This document shows, one piece after another, positions 12,528 through 30,555 of a stretch of 46,303 nt of DNA. The notes below the pieces were generated by a model, which saw only the letters and a list, made by a program, of their open reading frames with translations, did not search any database and was not told the origin of the DNA. The position numbers were made by a program, and so were the translations under genes. Origin of the DNA: Ignavibacteriae bacterium HGW-Ignavibacteriae-3 (GTDB lineage: Bacteria; Bacteroidota; Ignavibacteria; Ignavibacteriales; Melioribacteraceae); contig PGYS01000011.1 of assembly GCA_002839795.1 (NCBI GenBank), positions 1 to 46,303 of the forward strand, written 5' to 3'. Within the stretch, counting starts at the first letter, position 1; each line of letters starts with the position of its first letter.

Positions 12528-14268
12528 TATCATATGGTGCGATCTTTTTGTTAACCGCCTCTCACAACTCGGCGTCCGGTATGCGTGCATTTCCCCCGGA
12601 TCCAGAAGCACCTCTCTTACACTAGCTTTCGCTTCAAATAAAATGATAAAGGTATTTCCCATCGTAGATGAACGCTCTTCAGCATTTTTTGCATTAGGTC
12701 TGGCAAAAAAATCCAACACCCCTGTTGCAGTTGTAACGACGTCGGGAACTGCCGTCGCTGAGCTGTACCCGGCTATAATAGAGGCATTTTATACAAGAGT
12801 ACCGTTAATAATCTGCACCGCAGACAGACCGGTGGAATTGAGAAATAGGGGCGCAAATCAGACAATAAACCAGCATAATATTTACAAAAATCATATCCGA
12901 TCCTTTATTGATGCGGGACTGCCTGAGCTAAATAAGCTTTCATCTATTAAAAAGATCGCTGAGGAGGCCATTCATGTTTCATGCTTTTCGGACAGAGGCC
13001 CGGTACATATAAATTTTCCTTTCAAAAAACCATTTGAACCGAAAAGTTATACTGACCAAATTAATCTTAATAAAATTGAAAAAGTGTTCACTCACTCGGC
13101 ATTCGAAATCAAACCTCCTGTCCAATCCGCAATAGACTATGAATCCTTATCGAGAAAAATAGCTGCAATCGAGCGTGGATTGATAATCGTCGGACACAAT
13201 AATTACGGAAAGGAATTTACCGATCAGGTGCTTAATCTTTCAAAAAAAACGGGCTACCCCATTTTTGCCGATGGTTCATCTTCTTTCAGGTTTATCGATC
13301 ATTCCAACAATAATTTGATTGACAATCTAACGGCAATGGTAGGGACTCCGGAGTTTCAGAGGCATTACGATCCAGGAATAATAATACAATTCGGGGGCGC
13401 ACCTACATCTAATATTATACTGGACTTCTTCAAGAGTTCTAAAGCAGAAAAATTTTTGGTTCATGAATTCGGGGATAGAAACGATCCGTCACTTACAGCC
13501 AAAGCCGTATTACGGACCGATCCGGTTCATTTCTGCTCGTCTATTCTTAACAATTTATTAATAGAAAACCGGGACAGCTGCTGGCTTATCGATCTTCAGG
13601 TAATGAATAGGTTTTCCGAAAAACTGAAGAAAAAATTAATCTTTGAATCCGGATTTCCGTTTGAGGGAAGAATAATAAATGAGATTATAAACGCCATGCC
13701 GGCAAAGTCGAATCTGACAATTTCAAATTCTCTGCCGATCCGCGATACCGATTTTTTCGCCTCAGGTAACAACAAATTAATTAAAATATTTACCAACAGG
13801 GGCGCAAGCGGCATCGACGGGGTTAATTCCACCGCATTGGGAATTGCCGCCGGATCAAAGGAGAAAAACTATCTGTTAATCGGAGACCTGGCATTTTATC
13901 ATGATTTAAATGGACTGCACAACGCATTTAAATATAGAATACCCTTAACTGTTATACTAATAAACAATGGCGGGGGAGGAATATTTGAGTCGCTTCCTAT
14001 CTCGGCATATGGAGATGTATACAGAAAAAATTTCTCAACACCACTCAATATAAATTTTAAAAATCTTGTAAAGGCATATGACGGAAATTATTATAAAATT
14101 AACAGCTGGAAAAGTTTAAGAGAAAAAGTAATTTTATCTTCAAGGAATCTAAAACTCAACGTCCTCGAGATACAAACCGACGCGAGAAAATCGAAACTGC
14201 AACGTCAAAAATACTGGAACACCGTTTCTAAAAGAATTGTTAGATTCATCAATGAAACTAAAAGCTGA
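12505..14268 (+). CDS. menD: SEPHCHC synthase (2-oxoglutarate decarboxylase, TPP-dependent)
   Basis: MenD adds a decarboxylated 2-oxoglutarate unit to isochorismate, giving 2-succinyl-5-enolpyruvyl-6-hydroxy-3-cyclohexene-1-carboxylate. The 587 residues show the N-terminal pyrimidine-binding domain (CISPGSRSTSLTLAF, TSGTAVAELYPAIIEA, CTADRPVELRNRGANQTI). The TPP-binding C-terminal domain has NRGASGIDGVNSTALGIAAG, then LIGDLAFYHDLNGL and ILINNGGGGIF. It begins inside menF and ends 17 bases past the menH start. Confidence 0.96.
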   Translation: MKLSVNRNIIWCDLFVNRLSQLGVRYACISPGSRSTSLTLAFASNKMIKVFPIVDERSSAFFALGLAKKSNTPVAVVTTSGTAVAELYPAIIEAFYTRVPLIICTADRPVELRNRGANQTINQHNIYKNHIRSFIDAGLPELNKLSSIKKIAEEAIHVSCFSDRGPVHINFPFKKPFEPKSYTDQINLNKIEKVFTHSAFEIKPPVQSAIDYESLSRKIAAIERGLIIVGHNNYGKEFTDQVLNLSKKTGYPIFADGSSSFRFIDHSNNNLIDNLTAMVGTPEFQRHYDPGIIIQFGGAPTSNIILDFFKSSKAEKFLVHEFGDRNDPSLTAKAVLRTDPVHFCSSILNNLLIENRDSCWLIDLQVMNRFSEKLKKKLIFESGFPFEGRIINEIINAMPAKSNLTISNSLPIRDTDFFASGNNKLIKIFTNRGASGIDGVNSTALGIAAGSKEKNYLLIGDLAFYHDLNGLHNAFKYRIPLTVILINNGGGGIFESLPISAYGDVYRKNFSTPLNINFKNLVKAYDGNYYKINSWKSLREKVILSSRNLKLNVLEIQTDARKSKLQRQKYWNTVSKRIVRFINETKS

Positions 14269-15079
14269 GGATATTGAATTCAATCTTCTCTTAAATGAAT
14301 CCGGTTATGAGAAATCCCGGACACCTGTTATTTTTCTTCATGGATTCACAGGAGATGCTACAGACTGGCAGTTTATATTAGATAAGTTCCCCAAAAAATT
14401 TTTTCCGGTAGCAATAGACCTGATAGGCCATGGCAGTACCTCCTCGCCGGTGGACCAAAATCATTATACATGTTCGGCAATTGTTCGCCAGCTTCATTCC
14501 ATTTTTAATCAGCTGAGTTTTGATAGAGTTATTCTTGTCGGATACTCAATGGGTGGCCGTGTTTCACTATCGTATGCCTTAACTTACCCCCACATGATGA
14601 AAGCGGCAGTTCTTGAAAGCTCTACTGCAGGCATAGAAGATATCCGCAGCAAGAAGGAACGAGTTGAGATCGATTATCTTTTCGCTGAAAAAATAAAAAA
14701 TGAAGGTGTGGAATCATTTATTAATTTCTGGTTTGATACACCTTTGTTCGAGTCCCTCAAAAATCTGCCTGATTTTGACCGGATCAAAAAAAACAGACTT
14801 AAAAATAGTTCTACCGGACTTGCAAATTCATTAATGAGTTTCAGTACAGGACTAATGATGAGTTATTGGGATAAAATAAGTTCCCTTTCCTTTCCGATAT
14901 TACTACTATCCGGCGAACTTGATCTGAAATACAGTGCGATTAACGCAAAAATGCAGTCAAAACTACAAAAGGCACAACATACCTCCGTCCAGAAATGCGG
15001 TCATAATGTTCACTTAGAAAAGCCGGAGGATTTTACTAAATTAGTCATGGAATTTCTGACAAATATTCAAGGATTATAA
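14252..15079 (+). CDS. menH: SHCHC synthase, alpha/beta hydrolase
   Basis: MenH eliminates pyruvate from SEPHCHC to give 2-succinyl-6-hydroxy-2,4-cyclohexadiene-1-carboxylate. The protein has about 275 residues with the alpha/beta-hydrolase triad: [12 protein letters not shown] (oxyanion region), nucleophile Ser in [16 protein letters not shown], Asp in SGELDLKY, and His in [15 protein letters not shown] start at the ATG at 14252 inside the menD end; an in-frame TTG at 14237 would add five residues. The TAATG junction with menB suggests translational coupling. Position between menD and menB supports MenH over a generic hydrolase. Confidence 0.9.
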
Positions 15080-15912
15080 TGGGTTTTAATTGGAAGAACG
15101 CCAAAGAATATAAAGATATTATTTATGAAAAAATGGATGGTATTGCGAAGATTACAATAAACCGTCCTGAAAAAAGAAACGCCTTCCGTCCGGAAACAAC
15201 GCTCGAACTTTACGATGCTTTCGCCGATGCCCGCGAAGATGCAAATGTAGGTGTCATTTTATTGACCGGGAAAGGTCCCGCCAAGGATGGTAAATATGCT
15301 TTTTGCTCTGGCGGAGATCAATCAATTCGCGGCAATAAAGGTTATGTTGGCAAAGACGGAGTCCCGAGGTTAAATATTCTTGATGTCCAAAAGCAGATCC
15401 GAAGTATCCCCAAGCCTGTAATTGCTCTTGTTGCTGGATACGCTATTGGCGGAGGACATGTTTTACACGTAGTATGTGATCTCACTATCGCCGCAGAAAA
15501 TGCGATTTTTGGCCAGACCGGTCCTAAAGTCGGGAGTTTTGACGGAGGATTCGGTGCAAGTTTCCTGGCACGTATTGTAGGACAGAAGAAGGCGCGCGAG
15601 ATCTGGTATCTATGCCGGCAATATAATGTGCAGGAGGCATTTGATATGGGTCTAATAAACAAGGTCGTCCCTGTCGATCAGCTTGAAGCCGAGGGCGTTC
15701 AGTGGGCTAACGAGATTTTGGAAATGAGCCCTCTCGCTATCAGATTATTAAAATCCGCCTTCAATGCTGAATTGGACGGACAAGCCGGCATCCAGGAACT
15801 TGCCGGGAATGCCACGCTTCTTTATTATATGAGCGAAGAAGCTCAAGAAGGAAAAAATGCTTACAATGAAAAACGAAAACCGGATTTTAAAAAATTTCCT
15901 CGTGTTCCGTAA
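15079..15912 (+). CDS. menB: 1,4-dihydroxy-2-naphthoyl-CoA synthase
   Basis: MenB is the crotonase-fold enzyme that cyclises o-succinylbenzoyl-CoA to DHNA-CoA. The 277 residues include [16 protein letters not shown], the oxyanion-hole segment [26 protein letters not shown], and [16 protein letters not shown] with the GSFDGG stretch typical of MenB. It overlaps the stop of menH by one base. The 75 bases to menA form the largest gap inside the operon. Confidence 0.97.
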
Positions 15913-15987
15913 ATTCATTTTCATACAATTTGCTTTCTTAAGTTTCTCTCACATTCAGGTCCTGTCAATTATTTAAGAAAAAAGAGA

Positions 15988-16887
15988 ATGATCTCAACAC
16001 AAACTAATACAATCTCAAAAACACAGGCATGGATTCTCGCCAGCCGTCCAAGAACATTGGCGGCAGCTTTAGTTCCTGTTCTTGTTGGGACTGCGATAGC
16101 GGTTCACGATTCAAAGTTTCAGCCGCTCGCAGCGTTAATAGCTCTAATCTGCGCGCTTTTAATTCAGATCGGAACAAATTTTGTAAATGATCTTTTTGAT
16201 TTTCTCCATGGGACAGACAAAAAAGACAGAGTAGGACCCCTCAGAGTAATTGCATCAGGATTAATTACCAAACGGGAGATGAAAATAGCGATATACGCGA
16301 CTTTCGGAATAAGTTTCTTATTTGGTTTATATCTTGTTCATTTAGGCGGAGTTTTTATTCTTTGCATAGGAATATTTTCCATCCTCGCCGGAATCGCTTA
16401 CACCGCCGGCCCGTTTCCTCTTGCCTACAATGGCCTCGGAGATATTGCTGTATTTATTTTCTTCGGATTTGTAGGTACGGTCGGGACATATTATGTTCAG
16501 GCAGCCGAAATTAGCGCAATGGCTTTTTGGTCTTCCGTTCCTGTCGGGGCATTAATAACAAATATACTTGTTGTAAATAATTATCGTGACCGGGAAGAGG
16601 ACCGTTCAAACGGGAAAAAAACTCTAATAGTAATATTTGGGGAACGTTTCGGCCGTTTACAATATCTTTTCTTTATGCTTGTTTCATATTTTATACCATT
16701 TGTTGTTTACTACACATTCAAAAAAGAATTATTTGTTTTTCTTCCCCTTTTAAGTTTACCTCTCGCAATAAAACTGATTAGAATGATTTACACGTTGCGC
16801 GGACGCGAATTGAATAAGACATTAGAACTCACCGCAAAATTATCGGCTCTGTATGGATTACTCTTTGCGGCCGGAATTCTTTTATGA
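15988..16887 (+). CDS. menA: 1,4-dihydroxy-2-naphthoate polyprenyltransferase
   Basis: MenA is a UbiA-superfamily membrane enzyme that attaches the polyprenyl chain to DHNA. The 299 residues are mostly hydrophobic, with about eight or nine membrane helices. Two Asp-rich motifs bind the prenyl diphosphate through magnesium: NDLFDFLHGTDKKDR after helix 2 and NNYRDREEDRSNGKKT after helix 6. The N-terminal WILASRPRTLAAALVPVLVG is typical of MenA. It overlaps menC by four bases. Confidence 0.95.
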   Translation: MISTQTNTISKTQAWILASRPRTLAAALVPVLVGTAIAVHDSKFQPLAALIALICALLIQIGTNFVNDLFDFLHGTDKKDRVGPLRVIASGLITKREMKIAIYATFGISFLFGLYLVHLGGVFILCIGIFSILAGIAYTAGPFPLAYNGLGDIAVFIFFGFVGTVGTYYVQAAEISAMAFWSSVPVGALITNILVVNNYRDREEDRSNGKKTLIVIFGERFGRLQYLFFMLVSYFIPFVVYYTFKKELFVFLPLLSLPLAIKLIRMIYTLRGRELNKTLELTAKLSALYGLLFAAGILL

Positions 16888-17951
16888 TAATAAACGGCTT
16901 CAAATACATTCCCTTCACTCTTAATTTCAATTCGCCGTTCAAGACTTCATCAAAGACAATTACAGCACGTAAGGGATATATACTTCAGTTGAAAGATGAA
17001 CTTGGGAACCTTTCGCTGGGCGAATGTTCTCCCCTTCCGGGATTCAGCACTGATAATATTGAAGAGGCAGGCAATTTATTGGCTAATCTGCAGAATCAAG
17101 TTTTAGGATTAAATGTTGAGCATAATTTTGAATCCATTCAGAATTCTCTCCGGCGATTCGATCTACTTCCATCACTCCAGTTCGCATTTGAACAGGCTGT
17201 AATAGATCTATTGCTGCATCGGGACAGGGGTTTTATAAATAATCTTATCGAGAAAAAAAAATTTCTTATCGGTGTAAATGCTGTAATAGGTTTCGCGAAG
17301 GAAGATGTGGTTCTTTTTAAGATCCGGGAAAAAATTAAACACGGATATGACACCTTTAAAATTAAAGTCGGGCGGGAAGATATAAATGAAGATTTTCTAT
17401 TGATAAAAAAAATACGGGATGAATTCGGCAGCGGAATCAATATACGATTAGACGTGAACAGGGCGTGGAGTTCAGACAAGACTCTGGAAAATATTTGTCT
17501 TTTTAAAGATTTTAATATTACTTACATCGAAGAACCCTGTGAGCTTGTTTGCGGCAATTTCAGATTAATTGATCAGTCGCCGGTCCCCATCGCGCTTGAT
17601 GAATCACTCGCTTCGTTTGAGAATGCAACGAAACTCATAAATGAATGTAATGCCAAATTTATCATATTGAAACCGATGATTCTGGGCGGAATTATTTCTT
17701 CTTATAAATTTATAAAGGAGGCAGGGAATAAAAACAAAAAAGTTATCATTTCGTCTTCATTTGGAAGCTCTATTGGACGGAGCGCACTGGTTCTGCTTGC
17801 AGCCGCGACAGGTAATCAAATGGCACACGGATTGGATACACCGGAATATTTTTCAAGCGACGTTTGCTCTGATCCTTATCCAACAACAAATGGAAAGATT
17901 TTATTTGAAGCAGTAAATTATCCGCCACAATTCGATTTTACATTTTTATGA
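16884..17951 (+). CDS. menC: o-Succinylbenzoate synthase
   Basis: MenC dehydrates SHCHC to o-succinylbenzoate in an enolase-superfamily active site. The 355 residues show the catalytic lysine in FKIKVGR, metal ligands in IRLDVNRAWS, YIEEPCE and IALDESLAS, and the second lysine region KFIILKPMILGG. The N-terminal capping domain has LGECSPLPGFS. Overlap with both neighbours is four bases (ATGA type). A promiscuous N-acylamino-acid racemase activity exists in some relatives, but the context is clear. Confidence 0.95.
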   Translation: MIINGFKYIPFTLNFNSPFKTSSKTITARKGYILQLKDELGNLSLGECSPLPGFSTDNIEEAGNLLANLQNQVLGLNVEHNFESIQNSLRRFDLLPSLQFAFEQAVIDLLLHRDRGFINNLIEKKKFLIGVNAVIGFAKEDVVLFKIREKIKHGYDTFKIKVGREDINEDFLLIKKIRDEFGSGINIRLDVNRAWSSDKTLENICLFKDFNITYIEEPCELVCGNFRLIDQSPVPIALDESLASFENATKLINECNAKFIILKPMILGGIISSYKFIKEAGNKNKKVIISSSFGSSIGRSALVLLAAATGNQMAHGLDTPEYFSSDVCSDPYPTTNGKILFEAVNYPPQFDFTFL

Positions 17952-19414
17952 TTTTTCTAAATAGTAAAACACATTGGCTCTCCGAACAAACTTCGAGGCA
18001 GCCTGATAAAACTGCTTTTATTACCTCGGAAAGAACTGTTTCCTATCGGGAATTTTACATGGAATGCTCGGCAGCCACAGATTTTTTATTTGATTTGGGA
18101 ATTCGTAATACTGAAAAGGTGGGACTATTATACGGGCATAATTATAATTTTTTTGCAGTTGTTAATGCTCTCTGGTTTATAGGTGCGGTCCCCGTTCCTC
18201 TGAACACGCGCCTTTTAACAGAAGAATTGAAAAAGCAGATAGATCTGGCAGACATAAAATTTCTATTAATCGATGCGAACTTAACGGAACAATTTTCACA
18301 CTTGAATTTTGAAAATAAAATTTATTTCCCTTCAAAATCATCCCGCAAGACATACGACAAGAATACCCAAATTCTAAATTCCACATTGCTCTGCGACTGC
18401 CTGTCCGGCGGGGAGGTTCTCAATTGCTCTTTAATAATGTTCACTTCCGGAAGCACGGGAAACTCAAAGGCGGTGGTTCATACATTCGAAAGTCTTTTTG
18501 AGAGCGTTAAAGCATTAGATTCGTGTTTTGGTTTATCCAATGAAGATGTCTGGCTGGCCTCTCTTCCCCTTTATCATATCGGAGGATTCATGATTCCGGT
18601 GCGTGCTTTAATTGCAGGTTCTGCCGTTGCCTTTCCTGATTCTCCCTCACATGAGGATATAAAATCAGGAATAAAGAAATTTATTCCGTCACATATTTCG
18701 TTAGTCCCTACAACTCTTTTTCGATTATTAAATGAAAATGTTTCTCCGGATGCAAATTTAAAGTATGCTTTTCTGGGAGGCGGGCCCTCGGATAAAAAAT
18801 TAATATCCGATGCTGTTAGTATGAACTGGCCGATAATAAAAGTGTACGGTTCAACTGAAACCTGCTCAATGATAACGGCACTGCTTCCCGGCGAAAGTAA
18901 AGAAAAATTGGACTCTTCGGGAAAAGTTTTAAGCGATGTCAAAATTACAGTCCAAGAAACTGATGAGATACTTGTTGCGTCGAAAACCTTATTTAAGGAA
19001 TATTACAATGATCCGCTGAGCACCAGATCTGTATTTAAAGACGGATGGTATCGCACCGGCGATATAGGCCGAATTGACACAGATGGTTATCTCTTTCTGG
19101 ATTCAAGACGTGAGGACGTCATTATTTCAGGAGGCGAAAATGTCAGCTCGGGGGAAGTTGAAAACGTTTTAAAATCTCATCCGTCAATTTCCGACGCATT
19201 CGTATTTTCGCTTGACGACAAGACATGGGGACAGATAGTATGCTCGGTTTTGGTAACCGATAATTTTAATGAAGCTGAAATTTCAGATTTTCTACGAACT
19301 AAACTCGCGGGATATAAAATCCCTAAGCGGTTTTTTCTATTGAAGAAAATTCCCAGAAATGAATTGGGCAAAGTTTCACGCCAGACAATCCTGAAAGAAC
19401 TTAGTTTAGATTAG
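17948..19414 (+). CDS. menE: o-Succinylbenzoate-CoA ligase
   Basis: MenE activates o-succinylbenzoate through an acyl-adenylate to its CoA thioester. It is an ANL-superfamily protein of 488 residues. The P-loop is IMFTSGSTGNSKAVVHT, followed by LPLYHIGG, VYGSTETCSM (A5 motif), and the hinge and C-terminal core RREDVIISGGENVSSGEVE and RNELGKVSR with the adenylation lysine. It closes the men operon, and its last 14 bases overlap the convergent thioesterase gene. Confidence 0.95.
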   Translation: MIFLNSKTHWLSEQTSRQPDKTAFITSERTVSYREFYMECSAATDFLFDLGIRNTEKVGLLYGHNYNFFAVVNALWFIGAVPVPLNTRLLTEELKKQIDLADIKFLLIDANLTEQFSHLNFENKIYFPSKSSRKTYDKNTQILNSTLLCDCLSGGEVLNCSLIMFTSGSTGNSKAVVHTFESLFESVKALDSCFGLSNEDVWLASLPLYHIGGFMIPVRALIAGSAVAFPDSPSHEDIKSGIKKFIPSHISLVPTTLFRLLNENVSPDANLKYAFLGGGPSDKKLISDAVSMNWPIIKVYGSTETCSMITALLPGESKEKLDSSGKVLSDVKITVQETDEILVASKTLFKEYYNDPLSTRSVFKDGWYRTGDIGRIDTDGYLFLDSRREDVIISGGENVSSGEVENVLKSHPSISDAFVFSLDDKTWGQIVCSVLVTDNFNEAEISDFLRTKLAGYKIPKRFFLLKKIPRNELGKVSRQTILKELSLD

Positions 19415-19802
19415 TCTTCATTTTTTCATAAAACTCCACCGGCAATTCTATTTTTTTAAACTCTTGCTTAAGAACACAGACATGCACAGTTTTGGCGATT
19501 GCAGTAAATTGCCCGTCGGCTTTATAAAATTTGTAGCTTAATTCAAAAGAGGAATTTTTGAGGAGACTTACCACGACATCAACCCGGAGTTCATCGCCAA
19601 CTTTTATTGGCCTGACATAATCAGCCTCAGCATGTATTATGGGAAGAATAAAATCTTTATCAAAGAAATAATCTCTTGCAGTATGAAGACTGCGCAAATA
19701 ATCTTCATAAGCGGCGTGTACGAATTTGAACAAACTGGCATAAAAAATAATACCTGCGGGGTCAGCGTCGTAAAAATAAACCTTTACTTTAGTTGTAAAC
19801 AT
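19401..19802 (-). CDS. 4HBT-family acyl-CoA thioesterase, possibly DHNA-CoA hydrolase
   Basis: A 133-residue hotdog-fold protein. The active-site segment VYFYDADPAGIIFYASLFKF matches the 4-hydroxybenzoyl-CoA thioesterase/YbgC group with its conserved Asp. Classical menaquinone synthesis needs hydrolysis of DHNA-CoA between MenB and MenA, and no other thioesterase is present here. Location at the end of the men operon makes that role likely, although it is transcribed from the opposite strand. A general YbgC-like housekeeping thioesterase is the alternative. Confidence 0.8.
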   Translation of the reverse strand: MFTTKVKVYFYDADPAGIIFYASLFKFVHAAYEDYLRSLHTARDYFFDKDFILPIIHAEADYVRPIKVGDELRVDVVVSLLKNSSFELSYKFYKADGQFTAIAKTVHVCVLKQEFKKIELPVEFYEKMKTNLN

Positions 19803-22480: not shown

Positions 22481-23488
22481 ATGAGCAAAAAAATCCTTTT
22501 TATATGCGGTTCGCTTAACCAGACAACTATGATGCATTCCATATCACAGCATTTTAAGGAATATGATTGTTTCTTTACGCCGTATTACGGCGACAGCTGG
22601 ATTAAATATGGTGTAAGCAAAGGTTATGGAAAATTTTCCATTTTAAATGGACCTTTTCGAATACGTACCGAAGAATATCTTCGGGAACAGAATTTAACTA
22701 TGGATTACAGGGGCGAAAAACATGATTATGATTTGGTTTATACTTGCGCGGATCTAATCATGCCCAAAAACATCCGCGATAAAAAAGTTATTCTTGTTCA
22801 GGAAGGAATGACCGATCCCGAAAACCTTATGTTCTATCTTGTAAAATATTTGAAGCTTTACCGGTGGCTGGCAAGCACATCCACCATGGGTATTTCAAAC
22901 CAGTATACTTTTTTTTGTGTGGCTTCACAGGGTTATAGGGATTTTTTTATACGCAAAGGAGCCAAAGCGGAAAAAATAATTGTTACGGGAATTCCGAACT
23001 TTGATAATTTAAAGCAGTATGCCAAAAATGATTTTCCCCATAAAAATTTTGTTCTTGTTGCAACATCCGATGCAAGGGAAACTTACAAGCTGGAAAACAG
23101 AAAAAAACTGATCAAAGATTGTGTTCGCATAGCTAATGGCCGGCAGTTAATTTTCAAATTGCATCCGAATGAAAATATTGAGCGCGCCACAGTCGAAATA
23201 AATAAGTACGCTCCGGGAGCACTGGTTTATTCCGACGGGAATATTAACCAGATGATTGCCAGCAGCGATGCCCTGATTACAAAATTTTCTTCAACAGTCT
23301 ATGTCGGAATTTTCTTCGGCAAGGAAGTTTATTCCTATTATGATATAAACGATCTCAAAAAACTTCTGCCGATTCAGAATAATGGGACCTCCGCCGGAAG
23401 AATTGCAGGTCTTGGCAGACATCTGATGGATTTTCCTGATGCTTCCAATGAAGAGATCCATGCTTTATTTGATTCCGGGCAAAATTAA
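22481..23488 (+). CDS. GT-B-fold glycosyl/glycerophosphotransferase-like protein
   Basis: A soluble 335-residue protein with a two-Rossmann-domain outline: N-terminal KKILFICGSLNQTTMM and a C-terminal half with IFKLHPNENIERATVEI and ASSDALITKFSSTVYVG. That C-terminal pattern is shared by CDP-glycerol glycerophosphotransferases and UDP-GlcNAc 2-epimerase-type GT-B proteins. The middle linker VTGIPNFDNL is typical of the hinge. As the first gene of the cluster, one base from the cytidylyltransferase, it may transfer the CMP-sugar made by its neighbours; this is inference. A sugar epimerase role is less likely because the usual epimerase catalytic residues are not evident. Confidence 0.65.
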   Translation: MSKKILFICGSLNQTTMMHSISQHFKEYDCFFTPYYGDSWIKYGVSKGYGKFSILNGPFRIRTEEYLREQNLTMDYRGEKHDYDLVYTCADLIMPKNIRDKKVILVQEGMTDPENLMFYLVKYLKLYRWLASTSTMGISNQYTFFCVASQGYRDFFIRKGAKAEKIIVTGIPNFDNLKQYAKNDFPHKNFVLVATSDARETYKLENRKKLIKDCVRIANGRQLIFKLHPNENIERATVEINKYAPGALVYSDGNINQMIASSDALITKFSSTVYVGIFFGKEVYSYYDINDLKKLLPIQNNGTSAGRIAGLGRHLMDFPDASNEEIHALFDSGQN

Positions 23489-23489
23489 A

Positions 23490-24293
23490 ATGAAAATAGT
23501 AACTGTAATACAAGCCCGCATGACATCAACAAGACTGCCGGGAAAAGTTATGCTGCCTATTCTTGGCAAGCCTCTTCTGATTAGAATGATTGAAAGGGTA
23601 GCTGCATCAGATCTTGCGGGAGAAATTGTTGTTGCCGCATCAAAGAACAATGAAGACGATTGTATAGAAAAATTGTGTGTGCAGGAAAAAATAAAATGCT
23701 TCAGGGGAAGCTTGACCGATCTTCTTGACAGACATTATCAGGCCGGTAAAATAACCGGCGCTGAAGCAGTTGTTAAAATCCCATCAGACTGTCCTCTGAT
23801 TGATCCCCGTGTAATAGACAGAGTCTTGAGGTATTACACTGACAACTATGATAAATTTGATTTCGTAAGCAACCTCCACCCGGCAACTTATCCTGACGGT
23901 AATGATGTGGAAGTAATTTCATTTGAAGCCCTGGAGCGGGCATGGAATGAAGCCGAGAGGAATTTTGAACGGGAACACACTACGCCTTATATCTGGGAGA
24001 ATCCCGATAAATTCCGGATCGCCAACATTGAATGGGAGTCCGGCCTTGATTATTCTGCCTCCCATCGCTGGACGATAGATTTTGAAGAAGATTATCTGCT
24101 GATTAAAAGTATTTACGAAGAACTTTATTCAAACAATTCTACTTTTAGTCTCAACGAAATATTAGATTTACTAAAGCGAAAACCTGAATTAACCGCCATT
24201 AATAAGAAATATCTGGGCAAATACTGGTATGAAAATCATCTGAATGAGCTCAAGCATATTGACGAATATAAAAACAAAACTTCACTAAAATGA
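23490..24293 (+). CDS. Cytidylyltransferase, SpsF/NeuA-like
   Basis: The 267-residue protein has the CMP-sugar synthetase fold: VIQARMTSTRLPGKVMLPI (nucleotide-binding loop), VKIPSDCPLIDPRVIDRVL, and YPDGNDVEVISFEALERA. This is the SpsF type, related to CMP-acylneuraminate cytidylyltransferase. It would activate a 3-deoxy-2-ketoacid sugar with CTP. I start at the ATG at 23490, just after the stop of the preceding gene, because it gives the exact family N-terminus. A longer in-frame start at 23439 would overlap that gene. The ATGA junction with the transketolase gene suggests coupling. Confidence 0.88.
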   Translation: MKIVTVIQARMTSTRLPGKVMLPILGKPLLIRMIERVAASDLAGEIVVAASKNNEDDCIEKLCVQEKIKCFRGSLTDLLDRHYQAGKITGAEAVVKIPSDCPLIDPRVIDRVLRYYTDNYDKFDFVSNLHPATYPDGNDVEVISFEALERAWNEAERNFEREHTTPYIWENPDKFRIANIEWESGLDYSASHRWTIDFEEDYLLIKSIYEELYSNNSTFSLNEILDLLKRKPELTAINKKYLGKYWYENHLNELKHIDEYKNKTSLK

Positions 24294-25147
24294 AAAAACA
24301 AAATTTACTCGAATTGAAACAGACTTCTATGCGTGTTCGGGAGCATATTATAAGGCTGAGCGGGAACGGCGGATGTTTTATCGGCGCGTCTCTCTCGTGC
24401 GCAGATCTGATTGTCTATCTCTACAAAGAGTTTCTAAATGTTTCAAAAGAAACCCTGAATGATCCGGAACGTGACTACTTTTTCCTCTCGAAGGGACATG
24501 ACGTGCCTGCCCTTTACGGCACTTTTGTAGAACTTGGCTGGCTTGAAAAAGATCGTTTAAATAATCATCTAAAGACAAATGATTTTATCTACTGGCATCC
24601 GAACATTAATATTCCGGGCATAGAATTTCATTCCGGCTCGCTTGGTCATAATCTTTCCGTGGCAATGGGTGTTGCTATGGACTGCAAACTGAGGAAACAA
24701 AAAAACAGGATTGTGGTTGTAGTAGGTGACGGCGAACTTAATGAAGGATCGATGTGGGAAGCCCTGCTTGTGGCTTCGGCTTATAAATTGGATAATCTTC
24801 TGGTTGTGGTTGACCGCAATCAGTTTCAGGCGAACATGAAAACTGAAGATTTGATACCGTTAAAACCTCTCGCAAAAAAGTTTGAGGCGTTCGGATGCAA
24901 GGCAAAAAAAGTAAATGGACACAATTTCGAAAAAATGGATGAGCTGTTCGAAACTTTCCCGTTTGAAAAAGGCAAAGTATCGGTCGTGATTGCTGAAACG
25001 GTAAGAGGTAAAGGATTGCCAAGTATAGAAAAACGTGCCGACCGCTGGTTTGTTAATTTCAAGGAAGAAGAAATTAATCAGCTTTTAAAAGAATTGCATG
25101 GAGCTAAAAAGACTAAGTTAACATCAGAAACCATTGTGGCGAGATGA
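24290..25147 (+). CDS. Transketolase, N-terminal (TPP-binding) subunit
   Basis: The 285 residues correspond to the first third of a transketolase: SKGHDVPALYGTFVELGWL, HSGSLGHNLSVAMGVAM, and the TPP/Mg motif starting at GDG (146-148) with GELNEGSMWEAL and ending in VVVDRN. The C-terminal part is in the next gene, overlapping by four bases, so the two form a split enzyme. Transketolases move two-carbon ketol units between sugar phosphates. Location between a cytidylyltransferase and an aminotransferase points to a dedicated sugar-building role rather than the pentose phosphate pathway. Confidence 0.92.
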   Translation: MKKQNLLELKQTSMRVREHIIRLSGNGGCFIGASLSCADLIVYLYKEFLNVSKETLNDPERDYFFLSKGHDVPALYGTFVELGWLEKDRLNNHLKTNDFIYWHPNINIPGIEFHSGSLGHNLSVAMGVAMDCKLRKQKNRIVVVVGDGELNEGSMWEALLVASAYKLDNLLVVVDRNQFQANMKTEDLIPLKPLAKKFEAFGCKAKKVNGHNFEKMDELFETFPFEKGKVSVVIAETVRGKGLPSIEKRADRWFVNFKEEEINQLLKELHGAKKTKLTSETIVAR

Positions 25148-26055
25148 AGATGACATACTCAGATATTGTACTCGAGCTGATAAATAATGACGACCGCTAT
25201 ATAATTATGACATCCGAAAACAGGGCGGCATTCAGAAGTCTTCCGCCGCTGATAAAGAATAATTTTGTAGATACAGGAATTACAGAGCAGACGATGATCG
25301 GCATGGCTGCCGGTCTTGCTCTGCGCGGAAGGACGCCTATTGTCCACGCGCTGGCTACATTTCTGACGATGAGAGCGTTCGAGTTTATACGCACGGATGT
25401 CGGCATAGCAAATCTTCCTGTAAAAATTGTCGGCGCAGTACCGGGATTCTTATCTGACGGAAACGGTCCTACTCATCAGGCAATAGAGGATGTTTCAATT
25501 ATGAGAGGAATACCCAATGTAAATGTTTTCTGCCCGGCCGATGAGGATGATATGATAACAGGATTGAAAACAGTTTTTACCTGTCCATCCCCGTTTTACA
25601 TTAGATATAATACTGCTAAAGCAGTTGTAGAGCACGGTAAATTTGAAATCGGGAAAGCGGAGGTTTTTGGGAACGGAACTGATGTTGCGATACTGGTTTA
25701 CGGATTCTTATTCGGCGAGAGCTTCAAAGCAAAGCAGATTCTTGAATCTAAAGGAGTATCGGTCCGGTTGATAAATATCAGAACACCAAAACCGGTTGAT
25801 GAAGAAACCATTTTGAGATCCGTTGATGAATGCAGGCTGATCGTTACGATAGAAGATCATTTTATAACAGGAGGGCTTTATTCAATTCTTGCGGAAGTTC
25901 TTCTGCGGAACAGAAAAACAGCTGCTGTTCTCCCCTTTGCTCTTATGGACAAATGGTTCAAGCCCGGAATGCTCAATGATGTATTAAATTTTGAAGGATT
26001 TACTGCAGAACAGATTGCGGTCAAAATTATTAATCAAATATCAATTGATCACTGA
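25144..26055 (+). CDS. Transketolase, C-terminal subunit
   Basis: The 303 residues hold the pyrimidine-binding domain of transketolase (DTGITEQTMIGMAAGLAL, FLTMRAFEFIRTDVGIANL and DGNGPTHQAIEDVSIMRG), including the catalytic Glu in ITEQ. The C-terminal domain follows (GVSVRLINIRTPKPVDEE, IVTIEDHFITGGL). It overlaps the N-terminal subunit gene by ATGA. DXP synthase is excluded because that enzyme is a single longer chain with a different domain order, though the folds are related. Confidence 0.92.
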   Translation: MKMTYSDIVLELINNDDRYIIMTSENRAAFRSLPPLIKNNFVDTGITEQTMIGMAAGLALRGRTPIVHALATFLTMRAFEFIRTDVGIANLPVKIVGAVPGFLSDGNGPTHQAIEDVSIMRGIPNVNVFCPADEDDMITGLKTVFTCPSPFYIRYNTAKAVVEHGKFEIGKAEVFGNGTDVAILVYGFLFGESFKAKQILESKGVSVRLINIRTPKPVDEETILRSVDECRLIVTIEDHFITGGLYSILAEVLLRNRKTAAVLPFALMDKWFKPGMLNDVLNFEGFTAEQIAVKIINQISIDH

Positions 26056-26130: not shown

Positions 26131-27465
26131 ATGGCTAATAAAATTAGTTTAAAGAACGGATTCCCTAAAATTTCCAAATCCGACGAATTATATAATCGCG
26201 CACTGGGACTGATCCCCTCCGTTACGCAAACTTTGGCAAAAGGGCCCGGCCAATGGGTAAAGGGAATTGCCCCGAAGTATCTGGTTAAAGGAAAAGGTTC
26301 TCATGTGTGGGATGTTGACGGGAACGAATATATAGATTATATGATGGGCGTTGGCCCCCTTTCACTCGGCTATGCATATCCTAAAGTTGATGATGCAATA
26401 AAAAGACAGCTTCAAGACGGTATAACTTTTTCGATGATGCATCCCCTCGAAGTAGAAGTCGCGGAAATGATAAGACAGATCATCCCGAATGCCGAAGCCG
26501 TACGCTACAGTAAAACCGGAGCGGATGTGACGAGCGCCGCGGTGAGACTTGCAAGAGCGTATACAGGAAAAAATAAAATTCTTTGCTGCGGTTATCACGG
26601 CTGGCATGATTGGTACATTGCGGTCACCGCGAGAAATAATGGAATTCCAAACGCTGTCCAGGCGATTTCTTTTACATTCAACTATAATGATCTTGATTCC
26701 GTTGTAAAATCTATTGACGATGACGTTGCGGCTCTAATTCTTGAACCTGTTGTCTTTACAGAACCGACGAATAATTTTTTGAACAGACTTGCCGATCTCT
26801 GCAAAGAAAAGAATATTGTATTAATATTTGATGAGATGTGGACGGGATTCAGAATGGCTATGGGAGGTGCCCAGGAATATTTCGGAATTACACCGGATCT
26901 GGCAACGTATTCAAAAGCGGTTGCCAACGGAATGCCCATATCAATTCTAACCGGCAGAAGAGAAATTATGGATCTTGCCGACGATGATATTTTCTTTTAT
27001 ACTACATTCGGCGGGGAAGCTCTTTCGCTGGCTGCCGCTAAAGCAACTATTGAAGAACTTCGGGATAAAAATGTTCCGCAATATTTAAATGATCAGGGCG
27101 CAAAATTAAAGGACGGATACAACGCAATAGTTCAGAAACTTGGACTTGATTACACGAAGGCGACCGGATACAACTGGCGTTCAATGGCAACTTTTGAAGA
27201 AAAAGCCGGAGATCCCCTGATTCAGAAATCCTTAATGCAGCAGGAAATGATCAAGCGCGGGGTTCTGTGGCAGGGCTTTCATAATATGTCGTTCTCACAT
27301 TCGGATGCGGACATTGATTTTACACTTCTCGCGTTGGAAGAGTCGCTCGTTGTTCTGAAAAATGCCGTTCATAAAAATATATTAAGAGAAAGTCTGTTGG
27401 GCGAGCCTGTTAAGCCCGTTTTCAGAAAAGTCGACAATTTCAACATGAAGCCTGTGAAAAAATAA
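26131..27465 (+). CDS. Class III PLP aminotransferase (glutamate-1-semialdehyde aminomutase-like)
   Basis: The 444-residue chain is a fold type I PLP enzyme. KYLVKGKGSHVWDVDGNEYI opens the family pattern, with RYSKTGADVTSAAVRLARAY, GYHGWHDWY, the PLP-binding Asp in LIFDEMWTGFR, and the Schiff-base lysine K262 in TYSKAVANGMP. It resembles HemL, but tetrapyrrole synthesis is unlikely in this setting. The cluster suggests it aminates a keto- or aldehydo-sugar intermediate. It begins 75 bases after the transketolase gene and ends 12 bases before the SDR. Confidence 0.88.
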   Translation: MANKISLKNGFPKISKSDELYNRALGLIPSVTQTLAKGPGQWVKGIAPKYLVKGKGSHVWDVDGNEYIDYMMGVGPLSLGYAYPKVDDAIKRQLQDGITFSMMHPLEVEVAEMIRQIIPNAEAVRYSKTGADVTSAAVRLARAYTGKNKILCCGYHGWHDWYIAVTARNNGIPNAVQAISFTFNYNDLDSVVKSIDDDVAALILEPVVFTEPTNNFLNRLADLCKEKNIVLIFDEMWTGFRMAMGGAQEYFGITPDLATYSKAVANGMPISILTGRREIMDLADDDIFFYTTFGGEALSLAAAKATIEELRDKNVPQYLNDQGAKLKDGYNAIVQKLGLDYTKATGYNWRSMATFEEKAGDPLIQKSLMQQEMIKRGVLWQGFHNMSFSHSDADIDFTLLALEESLVVLKNAVHKNILRESLLGEPVKPVFRKVDNFNMKPVKK

Positions 27466-27477
27466 TTTGAGCAGATT

Positions 27478-28281
27478 ATGAAAATTTTTAGTTTAGAGAA
27501 CAAAACTGCAATTGTTACCGGAGCGCTCGGATTGATTGGAAGGGAGCACTGCAGAGCGTTAAGTGAAGCCGGGGCAAATGTTGTCGTTACTGACACAGAT
27601 GAACACGGATGTTCCGAGTTTGCCTCAACACTTTCCTCCGCTTCAATAGGATTAAAACTTGATGTTACTAAACCGGATTCAATTAAAAAACTTCGTGATG
27701 ATATAATTGAAAAGTTCGGTCATATTGATATTCTGGTTAATAACGCTGCCATTAATGATATGTTTGAAGACCCAAAGGCCGCAAGCGAATTATCCAAATT
27801 TGAAAATTATCCTCTCGACCTATGGCAAAAATCTGTTGATGTAAATCTGACCGGTGTATTTTTGTGTTCACAAATTCTTGGTTCTGAAATGGCCAGGCAG
27901 AAATCGGGAAGTATTATTAATATTGCATCAACTTATGGATTAACAGCACCGGATCAAAAATTGTATATTAAGCAGGACGGAATGCAGACCTTCTTCAAAC
28001 CGCCGGCTTACTCCGCCACTAAAGGTGCTGTTATAATGTTCACTAAATACCTTGCTGCATATTGGGGAAAAGAAGGAGTACGCGTTAACACATTAACTCC
28101 CGGCGGAGTGGAGAATAATCAGGATGAATTTTTTGTTGAAAAATATTCGTCCAGAACTCCATTGGGAAGAATGGCGCATCCGTCAGATTACAAGGGCGCA
28201 TTAATCTTTCTTGCAAGCGATGCATCAGCATATATGACAGGCGCCAATCTCGTTGTAGACGGCGGCTGGACGTGTTGGTAG
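27478..28281 (+). CDS. PtmA-like short-chain dehydrogenase/reductase
   Basis: The 267-residue SDR has the cofactor loop VTGALGLIGREHC (TGxxxGxG), VNNAAIND, and the catalytic Ser in INIAST with Y178 and K182 in YSATK. Segments such as LDLWQKSVDVNLTGVFLCSQ, KPPAYSATKGAVIMFTKYLA and SDASAYMTGANLVVDGG resemble PtmA, the dehydrogenase of legionaminic/flagellin glycan loci. The exact reaction is unknown. It probably oxidises or reduces a hydroxyl or carbonyl of the sugar before or after the aminotransferase step. Confidence 0.87.
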   Translation: MKIFSLENKTAIVTGALGLIGREHCRALSEAGANVVVTDTDEHGCSEFASTLSSASIGLKLDVTKPDSIKKLRDDIIEKFGHIDILVNNAAINDMFEDPKAASELSKFENYPLDLWQKSVDVNLTGVFLCSQILGSEMARQKSGSIINIASTYGLTAPDQKLYIKQDGMQTFFKPPAYSATKGAVIMFTKYLAAYWGKEGVRVNTLTPGGVENNQDEFFVEKYSSRTPLGRMAHPSDYKGALIFLASDASAYMTGANLVVDGGWTCW

Positions 28282-28328: not shown

Positions 28329-28859
28329 ATGAAAAAGAAACTGACCAAAAACCAGCTTTTAAATCGCGCTGCAAAGATTAAAATCCTTTTAACCGATGTG
28401 GATGGCGTCCTTACGGATGCAGGTGTGTATTACTCCTCGAACGGTGAACTTATGAAACGATTCTCAATTCGGGATGGAATGGGAGTCGAACTTTTACGAA
28501 AACAGGTTAATGTGGAAACCGGAATAATTACTCGCGAAGATACTTTAATTGTTAAAACCAGGGCGAATAGGTTAGGTATCAAAGAATTACACATGGGTAT
28601 CCTTGATAAATTAAAAACTCTTGAAGAAATTATTGCCAGAAAAAAAATAAAAGCAGAAGAGATTGCCTTTATCGGGGATGATGTCAACGACGTTGAGATT
28701 CTGAAAAGTGTTGGATTGTCGGCATGTCCTAACGACGCCACAAAAATTGTAAAGGGCGTAGCGGATATGATAGTAGAGAGTAAAGGTGGGCATGGGGCCT
28801 TCAGGGATCTTGCCGATTTCATAATCGAAGCAAAGACAGATAAGAAAGGGAAGCAATGA
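28329..28859 (+). CDS. KdsC-like HAD phosphatase
   Basis: The 176-residue protein is the capless HAD type of the KdsC family (3-deoxy-2-ketoacid-phosphate phosphatase). The nucleophile motif is TDVDGVLTDAGVYY with D23 and D25. GELMKRFSIRDGMG, ITREDTLIVKTRA and IGDDVNDVEIL follow. These enzymes dephosphorylate KDO-8-P or the 9-phosphates of neuraminate/KDN. It overlaps the NeuB-like gene by four bases. This implies that the NeuB-like enzyme makes a phosphorylated product, as in the KDN-9-phosphate route of Bacteroides. Confidence 0.92.
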   Translation: MKKKLTKNQLLNRAAKIKILLTDVDGVLTDAGVYYSSNGELMKRFSIRDGMGVELLRKQVNVETGIITREDTLIVKTRANRLGIKELHMGILDKLKTLEEIIARKKIKAEEIAFIGDDVNDVEILKSVGLSACPNDATKIVKGVADMIVESKGGHGAFRDLADFIIEAKTDKKGKQ

Positions 28860-29749
28860 ATTTAAATAAGGTAAAAGTTGGCAATAGATGGATAGGAGAC
28901 GGAGAGCCGGTATACATTATCGCCGAAATTGGGATCAACCATAACGGTTCTGTTGAGACCGCTAAAAAATTAATAGATGGCGCCGTATTTGCCGGCTGCG
29001 ATGCGGTAAAATTTCAAAAACGCACTCCTGAACTATGCGTTCCTAAAGATCAATGGGATATCGAGCGTGATACTCCGTGGGGCAGAATCTCTTACATAGA
29101 ATACCGGCGTAAAGTTGAATTCGGTTTCGAGGAATATTTGGAAATAGACGAATACTGCAAGCACAAAGGAATTGAATGGTTTGCATCTCCATGGGATGAG
29201 GAGGCATTGTTATTAATCGATAAATTTAAACCGGCACTTTTTAAAATTGCATCTGCCTCGTTAACTGACTGGAACCTATTGAAGAAAATAAGATCAACCG
29301 GAAGGCCTGTTATTCTCTCAACCGGAATGTCGACTCTGAGTGAAATAGAAGAAGCCGTGGAAATTTTGGATATCGATAATCTGATGATCGCACAATCAAC
29401 TTCTAACTATCCCTGTACTCTGGAAGAATTAAATCTTAGAACAATAATTTCATACAAAGACAAATTTCCCGGAATACCAATAGGATATTCAGGGCACGAG
29501 ACAGGTTTGGCTCCGACATTAGCAGCGGTGGCTCTCGGTGCATCATTTGTGGAACGCCATATTACGCTTGACCGCGCTATGTGGGGTACCGATCAGGCCG
29601 CTTCGATTGAAATTAACGGAATGATGAAACTTGTCCGGGATATCCGGGATATTGAAAAAGCTCTCGGTGACGGAGTCAAGAGAGTTTATGAAAGCGAGCA
29701 AACGAATTTAGCTAAACTCCGAATAGTCAAACCAAATCTAAAAGTATAA
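28856..29749 (+). CDS. NeuB-type 3-deoxy-2-ketoacid synthase, short form without SAF domain
   Basis: The enzyme is expected to condense PEP with an aldose or amino-aldose (TIM-barrel NeuB family). The 297 residues contain IAEIGINHNGSVETAKKLID, DAVKFQKRTPE, LFKIASASLTDWNLL, VILSTGMSTLSEIEEAV, QSTSNYPC, IGYSGHETGLAP and FVERHITLDRAMWGTDQAAS. Typical NeuB, PseI and LegI proteins have about 340-350 residues, ending in an antifreeze-like (SAF) domain. This one stops right after the barrel. In NeuB the SAF domain helps bind the N-acetyl group of ManNAc, so a different, perhaps non-acetylated, substrate is likely. Confidence 0.9.
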   Translation: MNLNKVKVGNRWIGDGEPVYIIAEIGINHNGSVETAKKLIDGAVFAGCDAVKFQKRTPELCVPKDQWDIERDTPWGRISYIEYRRKVEFGFEEYLEIDEYCKHKGIEWFASPWDEEALLLIDKFKPALFKIASASLTDWNLLKKIRSTGRPVILSTGMSTLSEIEEAVEILDIDNLMIAQSTSNYPCTLEELNLRTIISYKDKFPGIPIGYSGHETGLAPTLAAVALGASFVERHITLDRAMWGTDQAASIEINGMMKLVRDIRDIEKALGDGVKRVYESEQTNLAKLRIVKPNLKV

Positions 29750-29752
29750 ATC

Positions 29753-30555
29753 ATGGCAGATTTTTTTTAGCCGGATTTACACAGTACGAACTGATTGCTT
29801 ACACGGTTATTATCCTTGCAGCCGTTCTGTTCATTATTCTTGAGAGAATATTCCCATATAACCCGGGGCAAAGAATTCTGCGGGAGGGATTTTTTAATGA
29901 TTTAGCTCTATACACAGTTGCCCAAAGTTATATCCTGGGAATAATCATTTTCACAATTATTATTAAATCGATTGATGCAACCGCCAACTTTTCACGATTG
30001 CAGCTTTTTGCCGATGTACCGGTTTGGCTGCAGCTGGTTTTCTTCACGATAACTCATGATATTTACATTTACTGGATGCACAGGTGGCAGCACAGCAATA
30101 AATATTTATGGAGACTTCACGAAGCGCATCATTCTCCAAAAAAAGTAGATTGGCTCTCCGGCTCCCGTTCGCACGCATTCGAAATTTTGATCAACCAAAC
30201 AGTTGAATTTCTTCCGATCGTATTACTCGGTTCCCCTCCTGAAGTAATCGCATACAAAGGAGTCATCAGCGCGCTCTGGGGGATGTATATTCATTCCAAT
30301 TTGGGGATAAAGACCGGATGGCTTCAGAAAATATTTAATGGTCCTGAAATGCACAGAATTCATCATACCACTGGCAAAGGGCGAAACCGGAATTTTGCCA
30401 CTAAATTTGCAATGTGGGATTGGATTTTCGGGACAGGTTTTTTACCCGAAGAACGCGTATCGGAATACGGATTGAAAACTTTTTTCCCGGATAATTTTTT
30501 CAGTCAGTTTATTTTTGCATTCAGGAGTTTTAAAAAAAGGGGCTCAAGTTATTGA
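29753..30555 (+). CDS. Sterol desaturase/fatty acid hydroxylase family membrane protein, frame broken near the start
   Basis: The reading frame from 29770 to 30555 encodes two N-terminal membrane helices, then the di-iron His motifs of the family: HDIYIYWMHRWQH, LHEAHHS and MHRIHHTTGKG. The ATG at 29753, four bases after neuB, starts MADFF but meets TAG at 29768-29770 after a run of eight T (29761-29768). One extra T would join it to the main frame and give 267 residues (MADFFLAGFTQYELIAY...). Without it, the first usable start is the TTG at 29998, which drops about 80 residues. The substrate is unknown. Confidence 0.82.

Follow-up and report, generated by a model that had tools for sequence, protein, structure and literature searches.

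A putative CMP-ulosonic acid gene cassette of Ignavibacteria includes a split transketolase-fold enzyme with replaced substrate contacts

Why should a sugar-nucleotide-type operon carry a transketolase (TK) of its own? The question is raised by a 46,303-nucleotide stretch of DNA from Ignavibacteriae bacterium HGW-Ignavibacteriae-3 (contig PGYS01000011.1, assembly GCA_002839795.1; the whole stretch is referred to below as the window), in which two overlapping open reading frames (ORFs) encode the halves of a split TK. An earlier note, made from the letters of the window, had described these ORFs as lying between a cytidylyltransferase and an aminotransferase, and both the ORF coordinates and the Pfam domains bear out the description. 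The two halves overlap by 4 nt, and overlaps of this length are found at three adjoining gene pairs of the operon.

24290..25147, + strand: thiamine diphosphate-binding half of the split TK (TKN), 285 aa; PF00456 Transketolase_N, E-value 6.1e-25
25144..26055, + strand: pyrimidine-binding and C-terminal half (TKC), 303 aa; PF02779 Transket_pyr, 3e-26, and PF02780 Transketolase_C, 4.2e-20

Judged from its sequence, the pair is a transketolase by fold and cofactor, and not a sugar-phosphate transketolase by substrate site. The AlphaFold model of TKN, built on a 15-sequence alignment (predicted local distance difference test score 83.0; weak at residues 96-107 and 115-117), matches the solved split transketolase 6yak with a template modeling (TM) score of 0.88 and 33% identity over the N half. 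The NCBIfam transketolase model NF004559, with its cut-off of 488, scored the halves at 207.8 and 146.5 bits, low values being inevitable for each half of a split protein. The dxs model TIGR00204 (cut-off 465.95) gave 165 bits on the C half and 39.4 on the N half, low scores being again inevitable for halves; it is the best model for the C half, yet it falls far under its cut-off, and identity with DXS seems unlikely.

The search for a second full-length transketolase that the earlier note had proposed was successful. The genome (3.36 Mb, 96% complete) encodes a separate full-length TK, a 677-aa frame on contig C189 (PF00456, E-value 1.3e-135, 451.8 bits), so the pair is not the only TK of this bacterium, and the finding by which the earlier note would have considered itself refuted did not come about. 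The remaining PF00456 matches are much weaker; they lie in frames of 895 aa (C121) and 653 aa (C185), which by their length may be pyruvate dehydrogenase E1 and DXS, respectively. Together with the replaced substrate contacts described below, the 677-aa TK led us to reject the pair as the housekeeping enzyme.

In a structural account of the Lactobacillus salivarius TK (PMC4601599), substrate binding and recognition are assigned to His28, His263, Ser384, Arg357, Arg520, His461 and Asp469. We equated these residues with H26, H261, S385, R358, R520, H461 and D469 of the E. coli enzyme, whose numbering is used throughout, and scored them in 106 N halves and 103 C halves (102 readable at the scored columns) of the pairs related to that of the window. 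All seven positions are replaced across this clade, 358 and 520 being less sure. H26 has become F in 106/106 N halves (F30 in the window), and H261 aligns to Trp in all 18 cassette rows of the tree alignment, W253 being present in 106/106 N halves and the adjacent F254 in 105/106. Among the 102 C halves, S385 is replaced by A (51), L (40), H (6), V (4) or I (1), H461 by V (58), I (36) or F (8), and D469 by N without exception. Position 358 is R in none of the 103 C halves, 71 rows having a gap there because TKC starts late, and position 520 is neither R nor K in any of them. The cofactor positions D147, N177, H70 and H103 are conserved in 106/106 N halves, as are the catalytic Glu E411 and H473 in 102/102 C halves and F437 in 101 (the last row has an X). 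HMMER alignments to the solved structures place F30 and W253 of the window on the two histidines of 6yak, and V, N and T of the window on H, D and R of the C chain of 6yaj.

H26 and H261 are both retained in 22 N halves of other TKs, among them E. coli TktA, AptA and the 677-aa TK of the window genome, and within the sequences sampled the double-histidine loss is the one replacement unique to the cassette clade. The authors of PMC5073344 state that S385 touches the phosphate groups of natural substrates and that S385Y impedes phospho-sugars, and that the E. coli variant S385Y/D469T/R520Q accepts benzaldehydes, two of the three being carboxylated. On the strength of the aligned residues, the active site is no longer of the sugar-phosphate transketolase type, a feature that the earlier note did not foresee.

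In a tree of 18 such pairs, 13 other split TKs, 9 variant TKs (see below) and 2 full-length TKs, the pairs formed one distinct clade with 100/100 support, which answers the phylogenetic question that the earlier note had left. Orthologs of TKN with at least 59% identity (from a search at 1e-30) occur in 35 of 296 genomes of the phylum, the other matches listed having at most 39%; this sample, like the 156 genomes of the order used below, is an even draw and not a census. A scan of named genomes, limited to the best 80 of 581 loci and including many metagenome-assembled records, found carriers in Melioribacter, Stygiobacter, Kapabacteria, Mucilaginibacter, Hymenobacter, Chitinophaga, Taibaiella, Saprospiraceae, Thermochlorobacter and two Anaerolineae, with isolate-type records among those listed for Mucilaginibacter, Hymenobacter, Chitinophaga and Taibaiella. 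A copy with 60% identity is present on a plasmid of the methanotroph Methylomagnum ishizawai. Carriage by phages was rejected, no close relative being detected in 50,697 phage records (22 matches, the best at 39.8%) or among viral contigs (5 loci, at 32-35%).

The surrounding genes are conserved with the pair. The remaining members of the operon are:

22481..23488, + strand: putative glycosyltransferase (GT), a CDP-glycerol glycerophosphotransferase-like/surface-carbohydrate protein; PF04464, 1.9e-6
23490..24293, + strand: cytidylyltransferase (CMPtr); PF02348 (CTP_transf_3), 1.2e-29
26131..27465, + strand: class III (glutamate-semialdehyde type) pyridoxal phosphate aminotransferase (AT); PF00202 (Aminotran_3), 7.4e-51
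27478..28281, + strand: short-chain dehydrogenase (SDR), sugar-acid dehydrogenase-like; PF13561, 4.9e-51
28329..28859, + strand: KdsC-type HAD phosphatase (KdsC); TIGR01670, 148.1 bits, cut-off 106.95
28856..29749, + strand: NeuB-family synthase (NeuB) that condenses phosphoenolpyruvate (PEP), 297 aa; PF03102, 1.8e-76
29753..30555, + strand: accessory gene of the fatty-acid-hydroxylase superfamily (FAH); PF04116, 8.4e-32 on its open part

Via TKN we collected 107 non-redundant loci, 86 of which had at least 2.2 kb of upstream and at least 6.8 kb of downstream sequence (21 with short flanks were dropped). The conserved order is GT-CMPtr-TKN-TKC-AT-SDR-KdsC-NeuB, and the 86 loci contain TKC (84), AT (83), CMPtr (82), GT (81), SDR (77), NeuB (76) and KdsC (58). 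A chance neighbourhood is rejected by these counts and by the nested gene presence in the phylum sample (see below). The genes found 3′ of NeuB include the hydroxylase (69/86), an SMR-type small transporter (36/86) and OlsF-like acyltransferases that are PlsC+GNAT fusions (7/86), whose presence hints that the product of the cassette may be lipid-linked. The two Anaerolineae copies and that of Methylomagnum comprise the eight genes from GT to NeuB/KdsC, and no hydroxylase was found in them, which is why we regard it as accessory. Genes annotated as LplT, GNAT acyltransferase and lysophospholipid acyltransferase lie 3′ of the Methylomagnum cassette.

Several curated models stayed under their cut-offs on the flanking enzymes: GT gave 34.1 bits with TIGR04396 (cut-off 125), SDR 192.9 with its top NCBIfam model, PRK08213 gluconate 5-dehydrogenase (cut-off 279), KdsC 161.2 with the nearest model, NF058599 for the phosphatase of 2-keto-3-deoxynononic acid 9-phosphate (KDN-9-P; cut-off 180), and NeuB 256.4 with TIGR03569 (cut-off 399.65) and 210.8 with TIGR03586 (cut-off 340.25), both NeuB/PseI equivalog models. 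Relatives of NeuB in the Protein Data Bank (PDB) are 8h2c and 6ncs. No SAF domain was found in it (PF08666, E 0.001); the same kind of search detects one in a Streptomyces NeuB. The CMPtr gene probably starts at the in-frame ATG at 23490, directly past the preceding stop codon, the called start at 23439 overlapping the preceding gene. The FAH frame is broken near its start at a run of eight T (29761-29768), either by a sequencing error or by a real frameshift; the open frames of its relatives are longer (median ~290 aa). A Pfam scan of ten proteins from the operon and its flanks showed no UDP-N-acetylglucosamine (UDP-GlcNAc) epimerase (a family searched for in these ten proteins and not elsewhere), no DegT aminotransferase and no kinase domain, the rest of the genome not having been searched for kanosamine kinase. 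Further upstream (12505-19802), MenD-, MenH-, MenB-, MenA-, MenC- and MenE-like genes presumably form a menaquinone cluster. The window genome contains a second strong NeuB-family match, a 354-aa frame on contig C84, and in two close relatives of this bacterium the short NeuB has another relative (72% identity) outside the cassette (G047:C176:12184-13047 and G035:C3:90815-91687). Related aminotransferases were seen in other clusters of haloarchaea and Shinella, contexts that gave no substrate. A 940-aa frame resembling an AT-SDR fusion (genome G082) crosses a stretch of N and was rejected.

A redundant enzyme of the pentose phosphate pathway, placed in the operon by chance and only boosting the supply of erythrose 4-phosphate or pentose phosphates, would have the correct fold and cofactor site that the pair has. 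We hold this to be very improbable, because a housekeeping TK is present in the genome, the sugar-phosphate contacts are replaced clade-wide and the pair is strictly linked with AT, SDR, CMPtr and NeuB.

Does the cassette need the TK? Gene presence was called at E-value cut-offs of 1e-90 (TK), 1e-120 (AT), 1e-130 (variant TK), 1e-90 (NeuB), 1e-85 (SDR) and 1e-60 (CMPtr). AT is found in 44 genomes of the phylum sample, and in nine of them the cassette lacks the TK pair (L198-L206). Of the nine, eight encode elsewhere, with no cassette genes adjoining, a TK of another type (656-665 aa), which we call the variant TK, and seven of the eight also carry an ordinary TK. The exception is G236 (a single contig, 99% complete), in which a PF00456 search gave the variant TK only and no ordinary transketolase. 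The ninth genome, G019, encodes a split TK of a different kind within an O-antigen-like cluster (L236:7388-8634), adjoined by alcohol dehydrogenase-like and HldE-type kinase-like genes (named by eye from the sequence). Nine cassette-free genomes of the order, from a scan of 32, have one ordinary TK each, plus frames of 890-900 aa in five.

The sample of 156 genomes of the order revealed the same exchange: 81 genomes have AT, 39 carry the split TK and 40 the variant TK (L228-L235 family), and none carries both. The 81 AT genomes divide into 35 with the split TK, 38 with the variant and 8 with neither, the 75 genomes without AT into 4, 2 and 69, respectively, and thus 38 of the 40 variant carriers have AT. 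The association of AT with either special TK (73/8/6/69; Fisher p 1e-27; by genus 37/1/1/28) is uncorrected for relatedness. Among the 79 of 81 AT loci that were read, the pair lies between CMPtr and AT in 35/35 split-TK genomes and is missing in 33/33 variant-TK genomes with readable upstream sequence, out of 36 (three loci, L245, L247 and L251, begin too near AT for its absence to be called). The best (quick) AT tree requires nine state changes, and its well-supported branches force four with the split label and five with the variant label; G321 and G334, with partial AT, were left out, and G397 was scored as split on account of a TKC fragment at the edge of a contig.

The variant TK was placed as sister to the cassette clade (94/90), with a long-branch warning. 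In all nine members compared, including a Streptomyces relative, the C-half contacts are likewise altered (R358 to T/P, S385 to D, H461 to F/L, D469 to P, R520 to I/S), with H26 and H261 kept (9/9); two members of the family score under the cut-offs of the NCBIfam transketolase models. We read the split and the variant TK as two enzymes for one step, a step that belongs to the cassette pathway, because cassettes without the pair go with the variant, the two occur together in no genome sampled and the exchange is repeated. The use of an unlinked TK by closely related cassettes is a further point that the earlier note had not anticipated. The TK is apparently an exchangeable but required part of a new type of CMP-ulosonic acid cassette. 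That the pair is dedicated, as the earlier note had proposed, is thus strongly supported by the second TK, the separate clade, the conserved synteny, the replaced substrate-site residues and the fact that a TK of either kind tracks the cassette.

At which point of the pathway, then, would the TK act? At the cut-offs used, the genes form strictly nested sets across the genomes of the phylum sample (TK, 35; AT, 44; SDR, 46; CMPtr, 47), and the 46 SDR genomes lie inside a set of 111 with a short NeuB, leaving 65 genomes that have this NeuB without SDR, AT or TK orthologs (one of them, G219, has an SDR at 44% identity). In family f24, KdsC adjoins NeuB in 5 of the 6 NeuB-only loci opened, and the f24 NeuBs share a mean identity of 67.8% with cassette NeuBs, as against 66.9% of the latter among themselves. 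Since such close NeuBs occur with KdsC in the absence of TK, AT and SDR orthologs, the substrate of NeuB and KdsC seems to be independent of TK or AT. In three NeuB-only genomes KdsC scored 138.9-145 bits with the KDN-9-P phosphatase model (cut-off 180), which did not confirm the idea that it is this curated enzyme. Two genomes of 95-96% completeness, G237 and G272, keep SDR, CMPtr and NeuB and have neither AT nor TK.

A cluster on a plasmid of Streptomyces sp. NBC_01237 (L239:2939-15407), found via the variant TK (42%), has NeuB (with SAF), SDR and TK in a row, its SDR sharing 42% identity with that of the window. The stretch read contains no close homologues of the operon AT, KdsC or CMPtr; an aminotransferase considered as a candidate AT homologue was rejected, reaching 40.8 bits only. 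The adjoining genes look like hydroxyphenylglycine, nonribosomal peptide synthetase (NRPS)/adenylation, P450 and lysine-aminotransferase genes (partly named by eye), and the cluster possibly specifies a natural product with an ulosonic acid part.

These observations bear on the main rival explanation, in which the TK acts before NeuB: it would make a ketose, AT and SDR would convert this into a 2-amino-aldose, and NeuB would join the latter to PEP, giving a 5-amino-ulosonic acid by a route that avoids UDP-GlcNAc. The aminoshikimate pathway, in which a TK prepares the acceptor of a PEP-condensing enzyme, would be its analogue. TK and AT do adjoin, no UDP-GlcNAc epimerase was seen in the scan of the ten proteins described above, and the enzyme classes match those named for rif biosynthesis in PMC8788734 (oxidoreductase, aminotransferase, phosphatase, transketolase and PEP condensation). 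We nevertheless consider it unlikely: the phosphatase implies that the product of NeuB carries a phosphate, for which the TK no longer has its contacts, the same NeuB, with KdsC in 5/6 of the loci opened, occurs in genomes without TK, AT or SDR orthologs, and the breaks in the cassette tend to part TK-AT from KdsC-NeuB.

The cassette run ends after AT in 5/86 loci. In family f37, three of five genomes (G137, G079 and G288) have TK only a few kb away from AT, with KdsC-NeuB or NeuB-hydroxylase elsewhere; TK-AT and KdsC-NeuB thus tend to part when the cassette breaks up. Behaviour as two modules is also what would be expected if two pathways had been joined, TK and AT building a second block (e.g., part of the lipid or acceptor of GT) and the TK never touching the ulosonic acid, and the downstream genes that hint at a lipid-linked product, including the acyltransferases that follow the Methylomagnum copy, would suit such a union. 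However, the AT-bearing genomes are a strict subset of those bearing SDR and NeuB, and the Streptomyces cluster joins NeuB, SDR and TK without close homologues of the operon AT, KdsC and CMPtr in the stretch read, which makes two joined pathways improbable in our judgement, and more so than a TK acting before NeuB.

The nesting, the pattern of breaks, the Streptomyces NeuB-SDR-TK row and the contrast between a phosphatase and lost phosphate contacts favour the order NeuB, KdsC, SDR, and then TK and AT. In the resulting scheme (i) NeuB would condense PEP with an ordinary sugar phosphate, (ii) KdsC, to judge from its family, would strip the phosphate, (iii) SDR would oxidize one hydroxyl of the free ulosonic acid, (iv) the TK would make or break a two-carbon (ketol) bond on this unphosphorylated substrate, leaving a carbonyl, (v) the class III AT would aminate that carbonyl, and (vi) CMPtr would activate the product for use by the upstream GT, as their families suggest. 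The two carbons might be either added to a nine-carbon precursor, giving an undecaulosonic-type acid, or removed, giving a heptulosonic-type acid; the reaction would join a ketol unit to an aldehyde in the first case and take one off a terminal ketol in the second. The suggestion of the earlier note that the TK sets the carbon chain length is compatible with both. The two histidines have a role in the TK mechanism, and their joint loss speaks weakly against the cleavage of ordinary ketose donors.

We tentatively prefer the view that this split thiamine diphosphate-dependent, TK-fold enzyme performs a step of a CMP-activated amino-ulosonic acid pathway after PEP condensation and not a step of the pentose phosphate pathway, although we place its likelihood slightly below even. 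Its fullest form is that a naturally re-engineered TK acts on the free ulosonic acid and shifts the chain by two carbons, so that AT makes an amino-ulosonic acid of a chain length unfamiliar in bacterial glycans, and that this step has repeatedly been taken over, within the same order, by an unlinked TK whose relative adjoins NeuB and SDR in the Streptomyces cluster; this we offer as a possibility that we are inclined to doubt rather than to believe.

Several observations weigh against the preferred placement after PEP condensation or against the evidence for it. Eight AT-bearing genomes have neither special TK, and six have a special TK without AT. Among the eight, G397 has the TKC piece at a contig edge, and G339, G352, G414, G416 and G418 are 71-92% complete with congeners that carry the variant; G371 (86% complete) and G019 (99%) are unexplained, a congener of G019, G320, having a partial variant TK. 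The independent-pair test of the exchange, made on well-supported branches, was underpowered and too weak to use (median p 0.25 from 4 pairs, which never shared a direction). Not being linked to the cassette and keeping both histidines, the variant TK may differ from the split TK in mechanism, and its sister position may suffer from long branches. R520 is uncertain, 35/103 rows having R one column off, and H461 and D469 are likewise missing from four split TKs outside the clade (L167-L169 and L173), of which L167-L169 lack R358 as well. The NeuB of the 65 SDR-less genomes is assumed to form the same product as that of the cassettes. The cassette does not always break between AT and SDR: among the 86 loci, the break follows TKN in two, TKC in one and SDR in one. 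Finally, G125 and G133 of family f37 carry TK and AT on different contigs. Apart from these two, TK and AT mostly stay together at breaks, and the TK genomes of the phylum sample are a strict subset of the AT genomes; both observations indirectly support the proposal of the earlier note that the TK may create the ketone used by the aminotransferase.

If the proposed order is true, the cassette represents a ketol-transfer route to new acidic surface sugars, for which gene-based rules built around NeuB would predict sialic acid. The same order would further provide a natural transketolase rebuilt for large unphosphorylated aldehydes, a property that has been engineered by hand in biocatalysis, and a clear case of one pathway enzyme repeatedly replaced by a distant relative. 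We found no description of a transketolase in a nonulosonic acid (NulO) pathway in the open-access literature, to which the searches were confined and which is not proof of absence; this agrees with the statement of the earlier note that two-carbon transfer is part of no established sialic acid-type pathway.

Comparison with known systems places the enzyme among several partial parallels. The engineered E. coli TK S385Y/D469T/R520Q (PDB 5hht) is altered at three of the same positions as the cassette TK; it is a laboratory variant that keeps H26 and H261 and, according to PMC5073344, accepts carboxylated benzaldehydes. The split-chain TK of Carboxydothermus hydrogenoformans (6yak, 6yaj) is likewise encoded by two genes and is the closest solved structure by sequence and fold, but it has His at the positions of F30 and W253 (6yak) and H, D and R in place of V, N and T of the window (6yaj). 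The apulose-4-phosphate transketolase AptA/AptB (L176; names as annotated) is also a dedicated split TK outside the pentose phosphate pathway. In contrast to the cassette enzyme, it keeps H26, H261, R358, H461 and D469 and has T at position 385 and K at position 520, and its role is catabolic.

The cassettes for NulO or sialic acid-type sugars, exemplified by the KDN-9-P synthase and phosphatase of Bacteroides, have NeuB, a KdsC-type phosphatase and a cytidylyltransferase in common with the operon, which differs from them in a NeuB without SAF and in the extra TK, class III aminotransferase and SDR. RifH, the PEP-condensing enzyme of the rifamycin 3-amino-5-hydroxybenzoic acid (AHBA) pathway, is a homologue of 3-deoxy-D-arabino-heptulosonate 7-phosphate (DAHP) synthase. 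According to PMC8788734, transketolase precedes PEP condensation in the aminoshikimate pathway, and the TK of the rifamycin AHBA pathway (orf15A/B) likewise acts together with an aminotransferase, an oxidoreductase and a phosphatase, as well as with a PEP-condensing enzyme. The likeness was drawn by enzyme classes. The acceptor there is phosphorylated, the product is an aromatic acid and not a CMP-sugar, and the PEP-condensing gene of the operon belongs to the NeuB family and is not an aminoDAHP synthase of the DAHP synthase type. The aminoshikimate pathway is the nearest precedent known to us.

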